From contig DXDG01000016.1 in NCBI GenBank assembly GCA_019115605.1, positions 1-64,000 on the forward strand: DNA of 64,000 nucleotides, read 5' to 3'. The notes beneath the pieces are model-generated. The model had not been told where the DNA came from and ran no database searches. It saw only the letters and a program-made list of their open reading frames with translations. Every line of letters begins with the position of its first letter. Within the stretch, counting starts at the first letter, position 1. Source of the stretch: Candidatus Alistipes faecigallinarum (GTDB taxonomy: Bacteria > Bacteroidota > Bacteroidia > Bacteroidales > Rikenellaceae). Positions 7,216-46,711 of this stretch are shown piece by piece. The position numbers were made by a program, and so were the translations under genes.

Positions 7216-8490
7216 ATGGGAACCAAACTGCGCCTTGTCGTCATGAACTTTCTCCAGTATGCGATCTGGGGCGCCTACCTGACCTCGATGGGGTCCTATC
7301 TGGTCGGCGTCGATCTGGCGTCGCACATCGGAATCTTCTATGCCATGCAGGGCATCGTTTCGCTCTTCATGCCCGCGGTGATCGGCATTGTGGCCGACCG
7401 CTGGGTGCCGGCACAGCGGCTGCTCGGCATCTGCCACCTTACGGCGGCCCTCTTCATGGCCGCGGCGGGCTACTACGCCATGTCTTCCGGCGCTGCGGTG
7501 TCGTTCGGCGTGCTCTTCACGCTCTATTCGCTCAGCGTGGCCTTCTACATGCCGACGATCGCCCTCTCGAACTCGGTGGCCTACTGCGTGCTGGAGGGTG
7601 CCGGTCTCGATACGGTCAAGGCCTTCCCGCCGATCCGCGTGTGGGGTACCGTGGGCTTCATCTGCTCGATGCTCGTCTGCGACGCCGCCGGATTCCAGAC
7701 CACCTACATGCAGTTCATCCAGTGTGCCGTGCTGGGGCTTGTGCTGGGCTTCTATGCCATGACGCTGCCCTCGTGCCCGACCAGCCGCGCGGAGAACAAG
7801 AAGAGTCTGGTCGAGGCGCTCGGACTGCGCGCCTTCACGCTCTTCAAGCAGAAGCGCATGGCGCTCTTCTTCATCTTCTCGATGCTGCTGGGCGTTTCGT
7901 TGCAGATCACCAACGGATTTGCCAATCCCTTCATCACCAGCTTCCGCGACATTCCGGAATATGCCTCGACGTTCGGTGCCAACCATGCCAATGCACTCAT
8001 CTCGCTCTCGCAGGTCTCCGAGACGCTCTGTATCCTGCTCATCCCCTTCTTCCTCAAGCGTTTCGGCATCAAGAACGTGATGCTCATGGCAATGCTGGCC
8101 TGGGTGCTGCGCTTCGGACTGTTCGGACTGGGAAATCCCGGATCGGGCGTCTGGATGTTCATCCTCTCGATGATCGTCTACGGCGTGGCCTTCGACTTTT
8201 TCAACATTTCGGGCTCGCTCTTTGTCAACAAGGAGACCGATGTGGCGATCCGCTCCTCGGCCCAGGGCCTCTTCATGATCATGACCAACGGCATCGGTGC
8301 CACGATCGGCACGCTCGGCGCGCAGGCCGTGGTCAATCATTTTGTCTATTCGCAGCAGGACGCCGAGGCCATGGTGGCCGGATGGTCGCAGTCGTGGCTC
8401 GTGTTTGCCGGCTATGCGCTGGTGGTTGCCGTCGTATTTGCCGTGGTTTTCCGTTACCGGCACGATCCGACAGCCATTGAGACGAAGTAG
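7216..8490 (+). CDS. MFS transporter, nucleoside:H+ symporter (NupG) family
   Basis: Starts MGTKLRLVVMNFLQYAIWGAYLTSMGSYL; 12 TM-like segments; family-typical N-terminus. Confidence 0.85.
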   Translation: MGTKLRLVVMNFLQYAIWGAYLTSMGSYLVGVDLASHIGIFYAMQGIVSLFMPAVIGIVADRWVPAQRLLGICHLTAALFMAAAGYYAMSSGAAVSFGVLFTLYSLSVAFYMPTIALSNSVAYCVLEGAGLDTVKAFPPIRVWGTVGFICSMLVCDAAGFQTTYMQFIQCAVLGLVLGFYAMTLPSCPTSRAENKKSLVEALGLRAFTLFKQKRMALFFIFSMLLGVSLQITNGFANPFITSFRDIPEYASTFGANHANALISLSQVSETLCILLIPFFLKRFGIKNVMLMAMLAWVLRFGLFGLGNPGSGVWMFILSMIVYGVAFDFFNISGSLFVNKETDVAIRSSAQGLFMIMTNGIGATIGTLGAQAVVNHFVYSQQDAEAMVAGWSQSWLVFAGYALVVAVVFAVVFRYRHDPTAIETK

Positions 8491-39109: not shown

Positions 39110-39182
39110 GGTGCCATAGCTCAGTTGGTAGAGCAAAGGACTGAAAATCCTTGTGTCCCCGGTTCGATTCCTGGTGGTACCA
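39110..39182 (+). tRNA. tRNA-Phe (GAA anticodon)
   Basis: GGTGCCA/TGGTACC acceptor stem, anticodon loop CTGAAAA, GGTTCGATTCC T-arm. Confidence 0.95.
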
Positions 39183-39206
39183 CTTTGAAGAGAAGCAAAA
39201 AGTTGC

Positions 39207-39431: not shown

Positions 39432-40661
39432 ATGAAAAGAGATTCGTTTCGCGTGCTGTTCTTCCTCAAGAAGACCAGGCTGCTGAAAAACGGAGAGGCC
39501 TCCGTCTGCATGCGCATCACCGTCAACGGGACGCGCGTCGAGAACAACATCCGCAAGAGCATCGACCCTGCCCTGTGGAGTCAGGCCAAGGAGACGGCCC
39601 GCGGCAAGAGCCGCCGCGCCTGCGACCTGAACACCTATATCGAGGAGGCCCGCATCAAGCTGTATCAAATCTTTTGCGAACTGGAGCAGCAGAACCGCCC
39701 CGTCACGGCCCACCTGCTGCAGGAGCTCTTCTTCGGGCAGGAGAAGCCGGAAGAGGTCCGCACGCTGTTGGGGACCATGCAGGAGCACAACGACCAGTGC
39801 CGGGCGCTGATCGGCACGGATTATGCGCTGATTACGGTCCGCCGTTACGAGAGTTGCCGACGTTATCTGGCCGAGTTGATCCGCCAGCGCTACGGGAAAG
39901 AGGATCTGCCTCTCACAGAGGTCAACGGCGAGTTGGTCCGTGCCTTTGCCTTCTATCTGAAAACGGAGAAGGGATGCCAGCAGAATACCGTCATTCGCTA
40001 CATGAAGTGTCTGAAAAAGATTACCAATCTGGCCCGCGCCAATGACTGGATGGCGAAGGACCCCTTCCTCGGAATCCGCTTCCACGAGAAGGAGGTCGTC
40101 CGGGAGTTTCTGACGATGGACGAGCTGCAGACCATCTACCGCAAGGAGTTTCCGCTGGAGCGGCTGACGCTGGTCCGCGACGTCTTCATCTTCGCCGCCT
40201 TTACGGGGCTGGCCTTCATCGACGTGCAGCAGCTCGCCCCGGAGCACATCGTCCGCGACAACAACGGAAATCTTTGGATCCGCAAGCCCCGTCAGAAGAC
40301 AAAAAACATGTGCAACATCCCGCTGCTTGATATTCCGCAGGAAATTCTGCGCAAGTATGCCGACCACCCCACCTGCCGGAAGAGGGGCGTATTGCTGCCG
40401 GTTCCATGCAACCAGAAGATGAACAGCTATCTGAAGGAGATTGCCGACATCTGCATGATCCGCAAGAATCTGACCACGCATTGCGCCAGGCACTCGTATG
40501 CAACCTCGGTCTGCCTGGCCAACGGCGTCAGTCTGGAGAATGTGGCCAAGATGCTGGGCCACTCCAACATCAAGATGACGCAGCACTATGCCCGGGTTCT
40601 CGACAGTTCCATTCTCCGGGACATGATGCAGGTGGAGAGAGCCATCTCCAAACTGGGATAG
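39432..40661 (+). CDS. tyrosine-type site-specific integrase
   Basis: 409 aa; SAM-like N-terminal regions and catalytic core AFTGLAFIDVQQL, TTHCARHSYATS, LGHSNIKMTQHYARV; located beside tRNA-Phe. Confidence 0.95.
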   Translation: MKRDSFRVLFFLKKTRLLKNGEASVCMRITVNGTRVENNIRKSIDPALWSQAKETARGKSRRACDLNTYIEEARIKLYQIFCELEQQNRPVTAHLLQELFFGQEKPEEVRTLLGTMQEHNDQCRALIGTDYALITVRRYESCRRYLAELIRQRYGKEDLPLTEVNGELVRAFAFYLKTEKGCQQNTVIRYMKCLKKITNLARANDWMAKDPFLGIRFHEKEVVREFLTMDELQTIYRKEFPLERLTLVRDVFIFAAFTGLAFIDVQQLAPEHIVRDNNGNLWIRKPRQKTKNMCNIPLLDIPQEILRKYADHPTCRKRGVLLPVPCNQKMNSYLKEIADICMIRKNLTTHCARHSYATSVCLANGVSLENVAKMLGHSNIKMTQHYARVLDSSILRDMMQVERAISKLG

Positions 40662-40730: not shown

Positions 40731-41672
40731 CTATGCCAACCGGCTGATCCTGTCTCGGATGATTCCCTTGTACTCCTCTTTCATCTCTCTCGGAAGGAAT
40801 GATCGATCCATATATGCGAACCAGACGTCCTGTGACTTCCGAAACTTGTGAAAGATGTTTTCTATAACCTTGTCGCCCAAACCCGAAGCCTGCATGGAAG
40901 CGATAAAATCCTCTTTCCGGATTTTCCGCTTCTTGCCATTGAGCGTCAACGCCAGCTCCTCGTTATCCTCCGGCATGACCAGCGCTGTGGAGAGCATGTC
41001 GTAGGCCGGAGTAAGCAGATGTTTACCCGGCACCTCGCTATAAAGCGAGAAGTTCTTCAAATGCATGTCGGCATTCCCCGTGATCCACGAAAACACGACC
41101 TGCTCCCAAAAGTTGACCTGATCCAGCAAGGGGGTTGCAGAGAATCTCCGGATGGTCTTGTCGATCTGTTCGTACGAACCTTTGTATTTGTGCTCGGTCA
41201 GACGCCCGGTCAACTGGCACATATCTTCCATGGGTAATTTCACACCCTGGGAAGTGCGGTCTATACGGCGTGTGATATAGCACAGTTCGCCATCAGCAAA
41301 GCGAATCAGGCTGTGAGGCACGACCCTTATTCTGGCCAGTTCGGCCAAATGCATCGTTAAATCCTCCAACTCGGGCAAATGGGCGAATCGTTCGGTTGGT
41401 GGTTTCAGAATATACCGCCCCCACAGCCCGACAATCGTAAAACGGTCGACCTCGTTTCGTCCACCCTTGAGAATATCGAGCGACAATTTTGCCTGTACCC
41501 CCGTAAGTGTCGTCTGGCTACGAATTACCTGTCGGGCAAGATCTGTCAGATTTTCGCGCGTATAGGGTAGTTCGGGAGGACACGACGTCCCGAATATTTT
41601 TTGGGAACAACGCTTGTGGAAATCCTTTTCACCCGCGGTCAACTCCCCGTAACAATACAAACATACCGCCAT
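40731..41672 (-). CDS. HipT-like Ser/Thr kinase toxin (HipA C-terminal domain protein)
   Basis: 313 aa; TTLTGVQAKLSLD loop, WITGNADMHLKNFSL catalytic loop, LTPAYDMLST metal-binding motif; N-terminal CLYC...HKRC Zn-ribbon-like segment. Confidence 0.9.
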   Translation of the reverse strand: MAVCLYCYGELTAGEKDFHKRCSQKIFGTSCPPELPYTRENLTDLARQVIRSQTTLTGVQAKLSLDILKGGRNEVDRFTIVGLWGRYILKPPTERFAHLPELEDLTMHLAELARIRVVPHSLIRFADGELCYITRRIDRTSQGVKLPMEDMCQLTGRLTEHKYKGSYEQIDKTIRRFSATPLLDQVNFWEQVVFSWITGNADMHLKNFSLYSEVPGKHLLTPAYDMLSTALVMPEDNEELALTLNGKKRKIRKEDFIASMQASGLGDKVIENIFHKFRKSQDVWFAYMDRSFLPREMKEEYKGIIRDRISRLA

Positions 41673-41675
41673 CGA

Positions 41676-42008
41676 TTACTCCTCCTTGGTGATTACGGGT
41701 TGAACTCCAACAGCTCCGATACAATCCTTACAGCAGGCCAAAAGCAAGGCCATGCGATCGCGGGCATCGATTTTCCAGTTCCTTTCGGCAATATCCAGCA
41801 ACCAGCCCTCGGGAATCAACCCGTCAAAAAACGGGAACAGTACTTTATCCCGATAGGGACGATCGCTCAACGGAAGGGTCAGACTCACAGCCTGCGCATC
41901 CGGTGCAGCCAAATAACCGGTATCGTATACGAATGTATAACCGTTCTCGTCTTCAGTCAGGATACCGGCCCGTCGATCCTGAAAAAATACAACAGCTTGT
42001 TTCATCAT
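41676..42008 (-). CDS. HipS-like protein (HipA N-subdomain-1 only)
   Basis: 110 aa; DTGYLAAPDAQAVSLTLPLSDRPY, LFPFFDGLIPEGWLLD. Confidence 0.88.
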   Translation of the reverse strand: MMKQAVVFFQDRRAGILTEDENGYTFVYDTGYLAAPDAQAVSLTLPLSDRPYRDKVLFPFFDGLIPEGWLLDIAERNWKIDARDRMALLLACCKDCIGAVGVQPVITKEE

Positions 42009-42220
42009 TCATCGGTTTTAGTCATCGGTACGGCTCCCACCTCATAGCCAAACAGATTCAGAATCTGGTTGACCTTGTCAAGACGAAGTGTCGGCTTGCC
42101 CTGCTCCAGTTCGCGGATAAAACGCAGTCCCACACCGGACTTCTCGGCAAGTTCCACCTGTGTCAGATGATATTGTCGGCGCATCGACTTGACCGAGTTG
42201 GATAGAGATGTTTGTTTCAT
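42005..42220 (-). CDS. HipB-like XRE-family HTH antitoxin
   Basis: 71 aa; HLTQVELAEKSGVGLRFIRELEQGKPTLRLDKVNQIL; ATGA overlap with the hipS-like gene. Confidence 0.9.
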   Translation of the reverse strand: MKQTSLSNSVKSMRRQYHLTQVELAEKSGVGLRFIRELEQGKPTLRLDKVNQILNLFGYEVGAVPMTKTDE

Positions 42221-42323: not shown

Positions 42324-42507
42324 ACATGGCACTCCTTTTCATCCGGCAGCAAGGTAATGGGCCGGAGCGAAATGCCAACCTCATGCCCCGAAGGGTTTTC
42401 CCCGGGAGCAATCTCTGCAGATGGAGATGCTCCCCCGGGAAAAAGGTTGTCGTATTCGCTCCGGCCCGTTTGGGAAGATGCTACCGATGAAAAGGAGAAA
42501 AACCATG
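42324..42507. repeat. long imperfect inverted repeat (about 184 bp)
   Basis: Arms share CATGG, CTCCTTTTCATC, AGCA, GGGCCGGAGCGAA, CAACCT, TTTTCCC, GGGAGC, ATCTC in order. Confidence 0.85.
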
Positions 42508-42595
42508 AACGGCTGCACCCCGTGATAGCTCGGTTACCCATGTTCCCTTTTTGCCTTCTGCCTGTTCCGTCTTGCTGCCTCGTTCTTCCTCTTGT

Positions 42596-42892
42596 CTACC
42601 GAAACTCGTTGCGATACCCCTCCTCCAACATCCGTTCGACATCCGAGGAGCGGTAGAGGATCTTGCCGCCCAGCTTGATGTAGGGAATCCGTCCCTGATT
42701 GCGGTAATCCTGCAAACTCCGGCGGCTGATCTTCAGCCGCTGCGAAAGCTCCTCGTCCGTATAGAAACTCTCACCATCCAGCGAGGATTTGCGCTTCGAA
42801 AACAACGTCTCCAAAGCCATGGAAAGACGCTCCAGCGCCTGGAAGTACGAGCGGATCCACTCGTCATGCTCCGTAATCAATTCATTGCCCAT
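42596..42892 (-). CDS. helix-turn-helix (excisionase-like) protein
   Basis: 98 aa; FYTDEELSQRLKISRRSLQDYRNQGRIPYIKLGGKILYRSSDVERML. Confidence 0.85.
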   Translation of the reverse strand: MGNELITEHDEWIRSYFQALERLSMALETLFSKRKSSLDGESFYTDEELSQRLKISRRSLQDYRNQGRIPYIKLGGKILYRSSDVERMLEEGYRNEFR

Positions 42893-42959
42893 TTTCCGTC
42901 TGTTTGATGCGAAATCCGGCCCGACACCGCCACGAGTGTCACGATCCGGCTCCCGCTGT

Positions 42960-43271
42960 TTATACTCCGTTTCTGCGCTTCTGCTCGTGCTTGCGCCGTG
43001 CCTCCAGCACCACAAGGAACGACCGCACATCTTCGGCCCGGTAGTAGATCTTGTGGTTGATCTGCGTATAGGAGAGCGACCCGTTGCCGCGAAGGGTCTG
43101 CAACGTCCGCTTGGAGATATTCAGCAGCTGGCAGACCTGCTGGTTGTCCAGCCACGGCTCCGGCTCGCCGACGCGGTGTGCATGGCAGAGCGCGTCCATC
43201 CGTCGGGCGAACTCCTCGAACCGCGCAAGCATCCGCTCGAAGGTTCGGGATTCTACGTTGACTATTCCCAT
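42960..43271 (-). CDS. helix-turn-helix (excisionase-like) protein
   Basis: 103 aa; WLDNQQVCQLLNISKRTLQTLRGNGSLSYTQINHKIYYRAEDV. Confidence 0.85.
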   Translation of the reverse strand: MGIVNVESRTFERMLARFEEFARRMDALCHAHRVGEPEPWLDNQQVCQLLNISKRTLQTLRGNGSLSYTQINHKIYYRAEDVRSFLVVLEARRKHEQKRRNGV

Positions 43272-43600
43272 GGCAGTGTTGTTTTAAGATCCCGGGAAAG
43301 CGACTGGAGCCGATTGCGACACCAGACCGTAATCTCCTCGTCGAAGGTTGCGAAGTGGTGTTCCAGCACGCGGTCCAGATAGCTGTACATCGAGATTTTG
43401 TCGTTGTCGAGGAGTCGCACGATTCGCTGAATCCGTTGGTGAAACTCCGGACGGACATAAATGGCCTTGCCGTGGAGAGCCGCGGTCTTGACCGGCTGCA
43501 GGAAGAGGCGCTCGTAGTTGGAGACTTTTCTCGATAAAGTCCCGGAGTCGAGGGTCGCCGTTCGGCTGTCGCCCCGAAGTTCATTCTTCTGCTCTTGCAT
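43262..43600 (-). CDS. DUF3408-like protein, predicted ribbon-helix-helix fold
   Basis: 112 aa; KAIYVRPEFHQRIQRIVRLLDNDKISMYSYLDRVLEHHFATF; conjugative-element-type neighbourhood. Confidence 0.75.
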   Translation of the reverse strand: MQEQKNELRGDSRTATLDSGTLSRKVSNYERLFLQPVKTAALHGKAIYVRPEFHQRIQRIVRLLDNDKISMYSYLDRVLEHHFATFDEEITVWCRNRLQSLSRDLKTTLPWE

Positions 43601-43680
43601 AATGATAGGCTTTTATGGTTTCGAGAGCGAATATATGAGCTTCAAAGATGTTTCCTCCGCTATCAGCGCTCTATGGCAGT

Positions 43681-43715
43681 GGTTGGCGTCGGTGTGGCAC
43701 AGGTTGGCGTCGGTG
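43681..43715. repeat. 14-bp direct repeat pair at 21-bp spacing
   Basis: GGTTGGCGTCGGTG at 43681-43694 and 43702-43715. Confidence 0.9.
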
Positions 43716-43884
43716 AGAATCCAAATAGCGTATTGGAAGACATTCCTTTGGCGTGCCAAAAAGAAAATCTGACATTCTGCTTTTGGGCGGACTGAAGAAG
43801 GAGATTGTCAGTCCGACAAGGGAAGGTGGCAGCAACCCTAATACCTCTACACCCTCAATATAAAGTCTCCTACAGACACCAATA

Positions 43885-44204
43885 GATCAAGGAAACAAGA
43901 GATCCGTAACCCAAGGTATCATGAACTCAGGGAAACAAGACGTCAAGGGCTCTTGAGGCCAAGAGATCAAGAATCCATGAATCCAAGATTTCAGCAGGGA
44001 CTGAGCTTCAGATTTCAGGACTTCATGAAGCCCGGGCATCAAGAACTCTTGAGGTCTGGACTTCATGACCTCTGGAGCTCACGAGTCCAAGAGCTCATGA
44101 TTTCGGGATCTTAGGGGTTCTTGACTTCTGGAGATCAAGACGCCAAGACTTCAATTCGTATTGATTTCCTGATATCACTATTTCATGATGGATTGAGTTC
44201 AAGA
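43885..44204. repeat. degenerate 8-bp tandem array, about 40 phased units, consensus nnTCAwGA
   Basis: Cutting at 8-bp steps gives GATCAAGG, AAACAAGA ... CTTCATGA, GCTCATGA, GATCAAGA, CGCCAAGA ... GTTCAAGA. By hand count 35/40 have C at position 4 and 30/40 end in GA. Confidence 0.85.
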
Positions 44205-44511
44205 GTTATTCATCCCGTTTTAGTGCAGTTTTGTTCCCGATGTCGGCTTCGGGAACGGGTGGTTCGCCTCTTCAGATTGGCCGACGAACAAGCGGAAACG
44301 GGGCGTGATATTCGACCCGTTTTGAGTCCCCGGAACATTATATGTTTCGGGACTCGGCATCCTAAGTTCATATGCAAATAAAAAGACAAAAAAATGAAGG
44401 CAGACATGAAAATAACAGTTAGCACCATATGAGTTTCAGAGGCTCAAATGGTGAATTACCATCTAATAATAAGCGCGTTATGGGTTATTTGCCGCTCATT
44501 GTCAAATATCG

Positions 44512-45507
44512 CTAGGCCACATACTTTTTAATGTCAACAAACGGGGTCCCTCTCTTAGCGACGGCAAAGACTCGGGCCAGGAGCTTGTTACGGACAATAT
44601 TGATGACTGTCATCCTGCTTTTCCCTTCGTCCAGCCTGCGCTGATAATACGCTCTGATCTCCGTATCGGTATGTATCGCACAAATAGCCGCCAGATGCAA
44701 CAACTTTTTCATCTGTTGGTTGGCAATCTGGCTCACCTGAGTTCTGCCTCGGACACTGGTGCCGGACTGATATTCGAATGGAGCAGTCCCGGAGTAGCAG
44801 GCGAACTTGCGCCAGTTGTCGAAGCGTGTGAAATTACAGGTGTATACGATCAGGTGCGAGGCAACGATGAGCCCGATTCCCTTGATCGTCGTGATCAACT
44901 CAAACGTGGTCCATAACTCTTTGTTGCCGTGCAGGATCTCCCGGATCGATTTTTCCAGGAGCTTGATTTCATGTTTCAACGTGCAAATCATCGTGTCGTA
45001 ACATGAAAACATGTGCGGCAGCTCTTCAGCATGAAAAACGGAACGTATTTCATGCTTACTGACGATGTAGCCAGCCAGATTCCTCGCCATACGCTCCCTT
45101 AGATTCAGCATATGCTGGATATTGAGAATCTCTTTTGCCGGCAGAGTCGTCAGGCGGATCTTGTCCAGAAACCGGAAAGCAAACTCTGCGATCCGTCTGG
45201 AGTCAATCCGGTCGTTCTTGCCTCTGGTAATACCCATGGAACGCTTTATCTCCAATGCAGGTACCATCGCATATAAAACCCGTTTTTCTTCCAGAAACTG
45301 CGCCAGAGAGAGCGAATAAAGCCCGGTGTGCTCAAAACACAACAGAAGATCCGACAAGGCCAGACACGTTTGCCTCTGAACCCATTGTTCCAACTGTTGA
45401 AATCCCAACCGTTCATTCTTAAATTGCTTGTGAACTTTTACGTTCAGGATGAAGACGTCCAAGGTATGTTTTGAGACGTCAATACCTACGAAATCTTTAA
45501 ATTTCAT
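44512..45507 (-). CDS. IS110 family transposase (DEDD/Tnp20 type)
   Basis: 331 aa; FVGIDVSKHTLDVFIL, RGKNDRIDSRRIAEFA, TIKGIGLIVASHLI, CYSGTAPFEYQSGTSVRGR. Confidence 0.95.
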   Translation of the reverse strand: MKFKDFVGIDVSKHTLDVFILNVKVHKQFKNERLGFQQLEQWVQRQTCLALSDLLLCFEHTGLYSLSLAQFLEEKRVLYAMVPALEIKRSMGITRGKNDRIDSRRIAEFAFRFLDKIRLTTLPAKEILNIQHMLNLRERMARNLAGYIVSKHEIRSVFHAEELPHMFSCYDTMICTLKHEIKLLEKSIREILHGNKELWTTFELITTIKGIGLIVASHLIVYTCNFTRFDNWRKFACYSGTAPFEYQSGTSVRGRTQVSQIANQQMKKLLHLAAICAIHTDTEIRAYYQRRLDEGKSRMTVINIVRNKLLARVFAVAKRGTPFVDIKKYVA

Positions 45508-45682
45508 AACAGTTAAAGATTTAATTAATAACAGGTTGCTCGCTACAGAAGCCGTTAAAAGACCCGAAGTCTAAAATCCTAACAGATACCTGGCAACCGG
45601 AAAAGCGACTGGCGGGGACAAATGCTAGTCGAAGGTCTGAAAACCTGGCAAGTTGTTAGGTTCACCCCGCAGTCGCTTTATA
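45508..45682 (-). ncRNA. candidate IS110 bridge RNA region
   Basis: Leader of the transposase with AGCGACTGCGGGG...CCCCGCCAGTCGCT and GGTTGC...GCAACC long-range stems. Confidence 0.55.
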
Positions 45683-45747
45683 AAAATATCAAATGAGGAA
45701 GTCTGATCCAAGTTGGAACAAACCACATTTGCGTTATGCAAATTAAC

Positions 45748-45803
45748 GGCAAGCTGTGTTTTCCGTTACGCGAAATAGATTTCGTAACAGAAAACAGCTT
45801 GCC
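45748..45803. repeat. near-perfect inverted repeat / stem-loop
   Basis: GGCAAGCTGTGTTTTCCGTTACGCGAAAT vs ATTTCGTAACAGAAAACAGCTTGCC. Confidence 0.85.
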
Positions 45804-46213
45804 CGCAAGGGGGTGGAAAACTCCTCCGAAGTCGTCGTTTTTTACCGGGGCCACCGTGGCCCGACCCGGATTTGGCCGGCGAAGGATTTTCGAGATCCCT
45901 TCGCCAGAAAACAGGGAAGATCCGGCCATTTTGGCGTGGAAAAGTGGCGGTTTATCGCTCCAATCAGGCACCGAAACAGCTCGTTTTCGACCGATTTTCG
46001 GCGGTTGAAGATGCAAAATTTCGGACAGATTTTACGAATTTTGACGTGCTTTTAAGCCCTCAATTCATCCAATTGAGAGCCTCTAATCGACATTTTGCGT
46101 CATAAAAAGCAGTGGAATTTTGTCCTCTTTCAGCGTCCAATCTGCGGAATTTCGGTCATTCAGAGCCGGTTTTGAAGTGGTTTCAGTACCAATTTTCCCG
46201 TGAAACGGGACGT

Positions 46214-46711
46214 TTATTGCGGGAAACAACGCACCGGTTTACGGCCTAACTCCAGCCCGCAGAGGACATCGAGCGAGCTGGGGCGGCCGTCCGTGCGGAG
46301 GGCGTAGACGCTCTCTTCGGCCATTGTGGCGACGGTATAGTTGCGGGTCTGGGCGGTCTGCCAACCGGTCCGGCGGGCGTTACGAACGGCAAAGATCAGA
46401 ATGCGCTGCTCGGCCAGGGCCTCTTCGACGGCGGGAGGGTAGCGGCGGTAGAGGGCGCGCCCCAGGGCCCAGATCACCGGATGGCGGGCTTGCAACAGAA
46501 GTTCAAAGACGGATTTTTCGAGCGGCGATTGGAAGCCGCTGATTACGACGCGGTCGGTTGCGCAACACGCCTCGGCCCAGCGGAGGACCTGCTCCTCGAC
46601 GGCCGGCGAGACGACGCGCGAGGCAAAGAAGGCGACCTTCCGACGGTCAAGTAGGGCGAGATTGCCCGTGTAATCGTAATCGAAAGCCATAAAAAACGTG
46701 GGTTGCCGCAT
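46214..46711 (-). CDS. DprA/SLOG-like Rossmannoid protein
   Basis: 165 aa; VVISGFQSPLEKSVFELLLQARHPVIWALGRAL resembles the DprA (SMF) core. Confidence 0.6.
   Translation of the reverse strand: MRQPTFFMAFDYDYTGNLALLDRRKVAFFASRVVSPAVEEQVLRWAEACCATDRVVISGFQSPLEKSVFELLLQARHPVIWALGRALYRRYPPAVEEALAEQRILIFAVRNARRTGWQTAQTRNYTVATMAEESVYALRTDGRPSSLDVLCGLELGRKPVRCFPQ

Follow-up and report, generated by a model that had tools for sequence, protein, structure and literature searches.

In the gut, CTnDOT-type ICEs disseminate genes for resistance and fitness, and they have conserved ParA and DUF3408 genes. Short DNA units in tandem are familiar from the met boxes, 8-bp dyad units that are bound by MetJ. 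ParA-like proteins acting at specific DNA sites are known from more than one context. In Agrobacterium, the ParA-like ATPase VirC1 and its small ParB-like partner VirC2 operate at overdrive, a sequence-specific site beside the T-border, and aid relaxosome assembly and docking; likewise, ParM/ParR of R1 and the gonococcal ParA/ParB indicate that partition-type proteins can serve conjugative secretion (PMC8716806, PMC4949242). In the ParF-ParG-parH system of plasmid TP228, a ParA ATPase and a small DNA-binding partner are combined with a degenerate array of short boxes (PMC7308502).

The octamer array and the element that carries it

The window, i.e., the whole 64 kb stretch analyzed here (positions 1 to 64,000 of contig DXDG01000016.1 from Candidatus Alistipes faecigallinarum), contains an array of octamers for which the sequence-only reading had claimed about 40 strictly phased but degenerate 8-bp units (Table 1). 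Lag-8 autocorrelation against shuffled controls, the check proposed with that claim, gives a clear peak: identity in the array core is 0.490 as compared to 0.254 ± 0.026 in Markov shuffles (z = 9), with a top value of 0.362 among 5000 shuffles, and it is the lag-8 maximum of the entire window, the runner-up being 0.337. There is no register slip across the 40 octamers of the core, and a profile (score ~230–232) lengthens the run to 42 units; the earlier hand counts (C at position 4 in 35/40 units and GA at positions 7–8 in 30/40) are exact. At lags 8, 16, 24, 32 and 40 the identity is 0.49–0.54, with the remaining lags at background; thus, distant units are as alike as neighbors, a flat profile that fits independently maintained sites rather than recent duplications. 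The unit is dyad-symmetric around TCAwGA (dyad similarity 0.972). Tandem Repeats Finder at a minimum score of 30 does not report the array because its units are too degenerate.

Table 1. Features of the array-bearing element in the window
Feature	Position	Strand	Basis or remark
tRNA-Phe, probable integration target	39110..39183	+	same tRNA beside L003 element
Tyrosine integrase of the element	39432..40661	+	PF17293, PF13102, PF00589
HipA toxin over two adjoining ORFs	40731..42008	-	Couple_hipA 41676-42008, HipA_C 40731-41672
HipB-like HTH_3 antitoxin	42005..42220	-	PF01381 E 7.7e-9
Second HTH_17 (excisionase-like) protein	42596..43030	-	PF12728 E 1.3e-13; TIGR01764 below cut-off
HTH_17 (excisionase-like) protein	42960..43271	-	PF12728 E 1e-9
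DUF3408 protein, 112 aa, candidate array binder	43262..43600	-	PF11888 E 5.6e-20
Two 21-bp direct repeats (TTGGCGTCGGTG core), between DUF3408 and array	43674..43715	.	kept in all five elements
Octamer array, nnTCAwGA, 42 units in one register	43869..44204	+	lag-8 identity and profile; core 43885-44204, 40 units
Inverted-repeat block, array-proximal half of oriT-like region	44205..44359	.	conserved in L001-L004; similar sequence in ICE mobA-parA gaps
IS110-family insertion within oriT-like region	44360..45746	.	NF033542 E 1.6e-48; not at that point in L001-L004
IS110 transposase	44512..45507	-	
oriT-like core, CGACTTCGGAGG...CTTGCGGGCAAG signature (45798-45834) and long inverted repeat	45747..45873	-	

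The comparison used four further elements (L001–L004), found in records of other Alistipes or Rikenellaceae; their DUF3408 orthologues are 92–97% identical to that of the window, and all four have the array. These arrays comprise 30, 31, 42 or 44 units, each end-to-end in a single register; hence, array length changes by whole octamers. In a comparison of L003, L004 and the window, pairwise differences affect 32/480 sites at the TC and GA positions of the unit as against 80/480 elsewhere, i.e., 2.5 times less (p = 1.7e-6, an approximate value as it derives from pairwise counts on related sequences), and across all five sequences the respective differences are 0.117 and 0.200. We accordingly reject a microsatellite, as had been argued earlier, on the basis of the flat autocorrelation, the register kept in the relatives and the position-specific constraint. 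Coding sequence is likewise rejected, there being no plausible ORF, which agrees with the prior assessment. The 7-bp omega-type parS that had been invoked as an analogy fails in its unit length: the period is exactly 8, with nothing at lag 7.

The conserved core of the window-type elements (42332–44359 and 45747–45873) consists of the two HTH_17 genes, DUF3408, the 21-bp repeats, the array and the inverted-repeat block; the 21-bp repeats are also present in the ICE remnant L153. The true start of the HTH_17 gene at 42596..43030 probably lies inside the ORF. While the tRNA-Phe also adjoins the L003 element, L001, L002 and L004 have the core without it; the cores in L002 and L004, which also appear as L106 and L099, adjoin another integrase. 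A search for att direct repeats flanking the window element found none. The gene list and the PF11888 match agree with the earlier reading, both in placing a DUF3408 gene here and in seeing no parA; relaxase, mobABC, TraG and tra genes are likewise absent from the element. Judged by its gene content, an integrase and an oriT-like site with no conjugation genes, we classify the window element as a small ICE-derived satellite of the relaxase-less integrative kind (IME/CIME), whose mobility is predicted; it lacks the mobABC, TraG and tra operon that characterize a CTnDOT-type ICE. The split HipA and its neighboring HipB likely constitute a cargo or maintenance module. A gene for a DprA-like protein (46214–46711) flanks the element, and L003, L154 and L156 have similar genes close to their oriT-like block; it may represent cargo or a shared integration neighborhood. 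With the IS110 insertion lying between the array and the signature core, the oriT-like region is broken up here, and mobilization of this satellite copy may be impaired.

Octamer arrays beside an oriT-like block in ICEs

The initial reading treated the array as a local oddity, a view that does not hold: it overlooked both the conserved oriT-like block adjoining the array and the occurrence of such arrays as a general feature of ICEs. The CGACTTCGGAGG...CTTGCGGGCAAG signature and the long inverted repeat recur between mobA and parA in CTnDOT-type ICEs. In the 180 genus genomes, the signature is found at 18 places in 14 genomes, as compared to 0 for a reversed control pattern. We label this block a putative oriT from its position and conservation. 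At one locus (L157, G127:C1:2015769), the signature has a relaxase-like gene as its neighbor but no octamer array.

DUF3408 genes are often found downstream of a parA, which bears out the earlier statement that they accompany ParA-like genes in Bacteroides conjugative elements. In annotated ICEs of Bacteroides fragilis and Parabacteroides distasonis, which are recorded as plasmids, the array is flanked by the divergently oriented mobC-mobB-mobA genes on one side and by parA-DUF3408-DUF3408-tra on the other. Directly upstream of parA, the arrays display element-specific units, such as CCGGATAC, GCATGCAC, TGACCGAC, TCTGGAAT or CATGAACT. Period 8 (often together with 4 and 12) is the sole enriched period in this position: the 99th percentile, as set by 490 control upstream regions, is surpassed by 14 of 27 partly related parA-upstream regions at this period and by 0–1 of 27 at other periods (p = 2e-13). 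Of 33 discovery loci, 29 are fitted by a self-trained, single-register octamer model; their arrays typically comprise 26–43 units that end near the parA start codon, with scores of 60–162 (232 for the window) versus shuffle maxima near 30–47. Validation drew on regions flanking MobB matches in a further family, together with a small number of DUF3408 loci elsewhere in the phylum. Of the 45 non-redundant parA loci in this sample, 37 pass, with a score above 1.25 times the maximum of 15 shuffles, and three of the 37 come from outside the order. Thus, the array, with about 26–48 octamers, is a general feature of CTnDOT-type Bacteroidota ICEs, present in most loci. We found no description of it in the accessible papers that we covered.

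The proposal that the same kind of phased octamer should lie upstream of other DUF3408 genes is borne out for the parA-DUF3408 loci of most ICEs, but not for DUF3408 genes in mob-type IMEs or beside a tyrosine integrase, which are mostly without an array. ParA loci that have no array or one of another period are L093, L116, L119, L123, L199, L200 and L204. In L093 (~7680–8000, G129:C142), the repeat upstream of parA-DUF3408 has period 9 (TTCAATGCA-type). An order-wide search with the literal TCAwGA octamer returned mostly unrelated matches, as the array sequence differs between elements. Near-perfect TCAAGAAT octamer repeats were observed in other Bacteroidales (L066 ~1400–1570, L052 ~1490–1690 and L063 ~1500–1560, from G170 and G256); they look like simple repeats, and G170 is without a DUF3408 match.

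DUF3408 as candidate binder and possible use of the array in trans

Across 21 non-redundant ICEs, array similarity is correlated with the identity of the DUF3408 C-terminal domain (r = 0.30, p = 0.0005), the corresponding value for ParA being r = 0.09 (p = 0.12). The partial correlation is 0.31 for DUF3408 given ParA (p = 0.0005) and -0.10 for ParA given DUF3408 (p = 0.90). In a control with MobA, present in 18/21 of these loci, DUF3408 given MobA yields p = 0.026 and MobA given DUF3408 p = 0.47. This modest covariation points to DUF3408 as the candidate binder. The earlier claim of a polymeric phased site for DUF3408 is thus supported by the link to DUF3408- and ParA-bearing ICEs, where arrays precede parA-DUF3408, and is tempered by the mostly arrayless DUF3408 genes of mob-type IMEs and by some arrays with no DUF3408 nearby.

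The C-terminal half of DUF3408 shows a strand-helix-helix-like pattern. An AlphaFold model from 13 sequences (pLDDT 72.7; an earlier one from 8 sequences, at 57.9, was too weak) predicts helices at 51–65, 71–85 and 87–107 with fair confidence, an arrangement compatible with an RHH fold. Foldseek with the 13-sequence model recovered nothing significant, the best match (E 3.5) being 6gyg, Reg576, which we take to be an RHH protein. A PDB search with the DUF3408 profile gave just a chance ribosomal match, and Pfam cross-matches at E 10 include no RHH family and no MetJ family. HHalign was run against ParG, omega and Arc, with sequences verified against PDB: omega is matched weakly above shuffles (P 0.013–0.04), with decoy ORFs scoring as high, and no similarity to ParG is detectable. 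By eye, KAIYVRPEFH of DUF3408 resembles KTVRVRADLH of omega. Hence, of the initial suggestion of an RHH-like protein, the compatible predicted helices stand, with no significant backing from Foldseek or HHalign. Scans of viral contigs for DUF3408 returned few relatives, and the partly available literature yielded nothing on its function.

Four loci with the oriT-like block (L152, L154, L155 and L156) are devoid of DUF3408 but have an array adjoining the block (best lag-8 score 0.53–0.59). These arrays are composite, with a GTACTGAC-type followed by a TGTTTTGC-type sub-array 0.2–0.5 kb past the signature, as would suit a pair of distinct binders or helpers. The second sub-array of the DUF3408-less loci fits the profile of the array of the ICE remnant L153 (z 24–48 over shuffles), which shares a genome with L152 and L154; the match is suggestive, since related elements may share arrays by descent. 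Similarly, the profile of the window array fits the ICE arrays L084, L092 and L108 (z 12–18), and the genome of L084 (G063) also has a window-type element (L094). An over-cut-off CTnDOT-type MobB is present in 24 of the 180 genomes, and these 24 include 5 of the 6 that harbor a window-type or DUF3408-less array element (Fisher p = 1.6e-4), with large complete genomes being over-represented. One of the five, G110, is not a clean satellite case, as its MobB is in the same locus as the array (L156); no DUF3408 was detected in this genome (89% complete). In the window's own genome (90% complete), we detected neither a CTnDOT-type ICE nor an over-cut-off MobB. The earlier suggestion of action in trans fits the anatomy of the satellites: the block, array and DUF3408 are kept in the absence of parA, relaxase and tra, and the DUF3408-less loci keep arrays that match those of ICEs. 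We infer that the array and oriT-like block of satellites are used in trans via a helper ICE.

Predicted function and comparison with known systems

We consider it fairly probable that the array is a polymeric DUF3408 site that lets ParA act on oriT-bearing DNA, in transfer and possibly also in segregation or operon repression, with satellites using it in trans. Each dyad octamer would be bound by one small DNA-binding dimer, and some 40 octamers in exact 8-bp register would allow a filament-like coating of the DNA by the protein. DUF3408 is the most likely binder, acting as a putative RHH-like, ParB-type partner of the ParA of the ICE. As CTnDOT-type ICEs have the array flanked by the oriT-like block and parA, the DUF3408-array complex would most likely be a handle for the ParA ATPase to position oriT-bearing DNA and dock it to the relaxase/T4SS in the style of VirC1/VirC2-overdrive. 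The complex might also segregate the excised circle in the manner of ParFG-parH and repress the parA operon. The window satellite, which retains DUF3408 and the array next to the block while being devoid of parA, relaxase and tra, would recruit a helper ICE in trans. Counting against this reading are the arrayless DUF3408 genes and ParA loci, the array of G110 in a genome with no DUF3408 detected, the failure to detect an ICE of this type in the window's own genome, the 270 bp that separate array and DUF3408 in the window-type element, and the modest size of the covariation.

A different reading is that ParA, DUF3408 and the array form a pure partition centromere, i.e., a type Ib system of the ParF-ParG-parH type stabilizing an excised and perhaps replicating ICE, with the oriT neighborhood being incidental. 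The ICEs, though not the window element, do have an operon of a ParA-family ATPase with its partner, a small putative DNA-binding protein, and an adjoining upstream degenerate short-repeat array as in ParFGH; moreover, many ICE arrays show a 4-bp sub-period. However, parA-less and even DUF3408-less satellites share the oriT-like block and array core, which points to transfer, and the integrated state needs no partition, leaving this reading rather unlikely. As the stripped elements keep the block and array, we favor a role in transfer, at roughly even chances, over pure segregation, which we rate as less likely; an operator function may be added to it.

That DUF3408 merely coats an operator and represses the parA-tra operon in the manner of MetJ on met boxes appears improbable. 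It would account for the reach of the ICE array to the parA start codon and for the 8-bp palindromic tandem units, but 30–48 units are far above a usual operator, the DUF3408-less elements keep arrays with no such operon seen there, and the array of the window is 270 bp from the DUF3408 gene rather than abutting it. Slightly more improbable still is binding by MobA, another relaxosome protein or a host factor in place of DUF3408: mobA lies divergently beside the array and its product looks RHH-like from its sequence, but with DUF3408 controlled for, array sequence does not follow MobA, while the reverse dependence persists, and the oriT core is conserved where the arrays diverge. A functionless, decaying simple tandem repeat, with its exact period, degenerate units and unrelated octamer counterparts in G170 and G256, is scarcely credible in light of the features that dismiss a microsatellite and of the repeated occurrence of arrays, differing in unit sequence, at a single location in many ICEs.

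Returning to the array as a DUF3408 site used by ParA, we tentatively posit a more specific version, in which Bacteroidota ICEs would carry a fast-evolving, element-specific address code: an array of 30–48 octamers beside oriT, read by the element's own DUF3408-ParA pair. Satellites might copy this code, some with two sub-arrays for two helpers, such that the array would decide which ICE mobilizes which satellite. The array beside the oriT-like block offers a candidate DNA target for ParA and DUF3408, suggests how satellites might pick helpers, and can serve as a sequence marker for computationally locating oriT regions and relaxase-less satellites.

Among the known systems, the CTnDOT/CTn341-type ICEs (mobABC, the ParA TraA and DUF3408) have the same oriT-like block and gene order and carry the array, whereas the window element is a stripped satellite with no mob or tra. 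The octamers are comparable to met boxes as palindromic tandem 8-bp units, but number about 40 as compared to 2–5, with a protein that is not of the MetJ family and no metabolic operon. They share contiguous short units with omega/parS of pSM19035, which are coated by an RHH protein, but are 8-bp palindromes rather than 7-bp units. The ICE parA, DUF3408 and degenerate array parallel ParF-ParG-parH; in contrast to it, the array is found on integrative elements, beside an oriT-like block, and is kept on parA-less satellites. Finally, with the array adjoining an oriT-like block and a ParA accompanied by a small partner, the layout is reminiscent of VirC1/VirC2-overdrive of the Agrobacterium Ti plasmid, from which it differs in having a site of about 40 octamers, in a different phylum and with a different T4SS.
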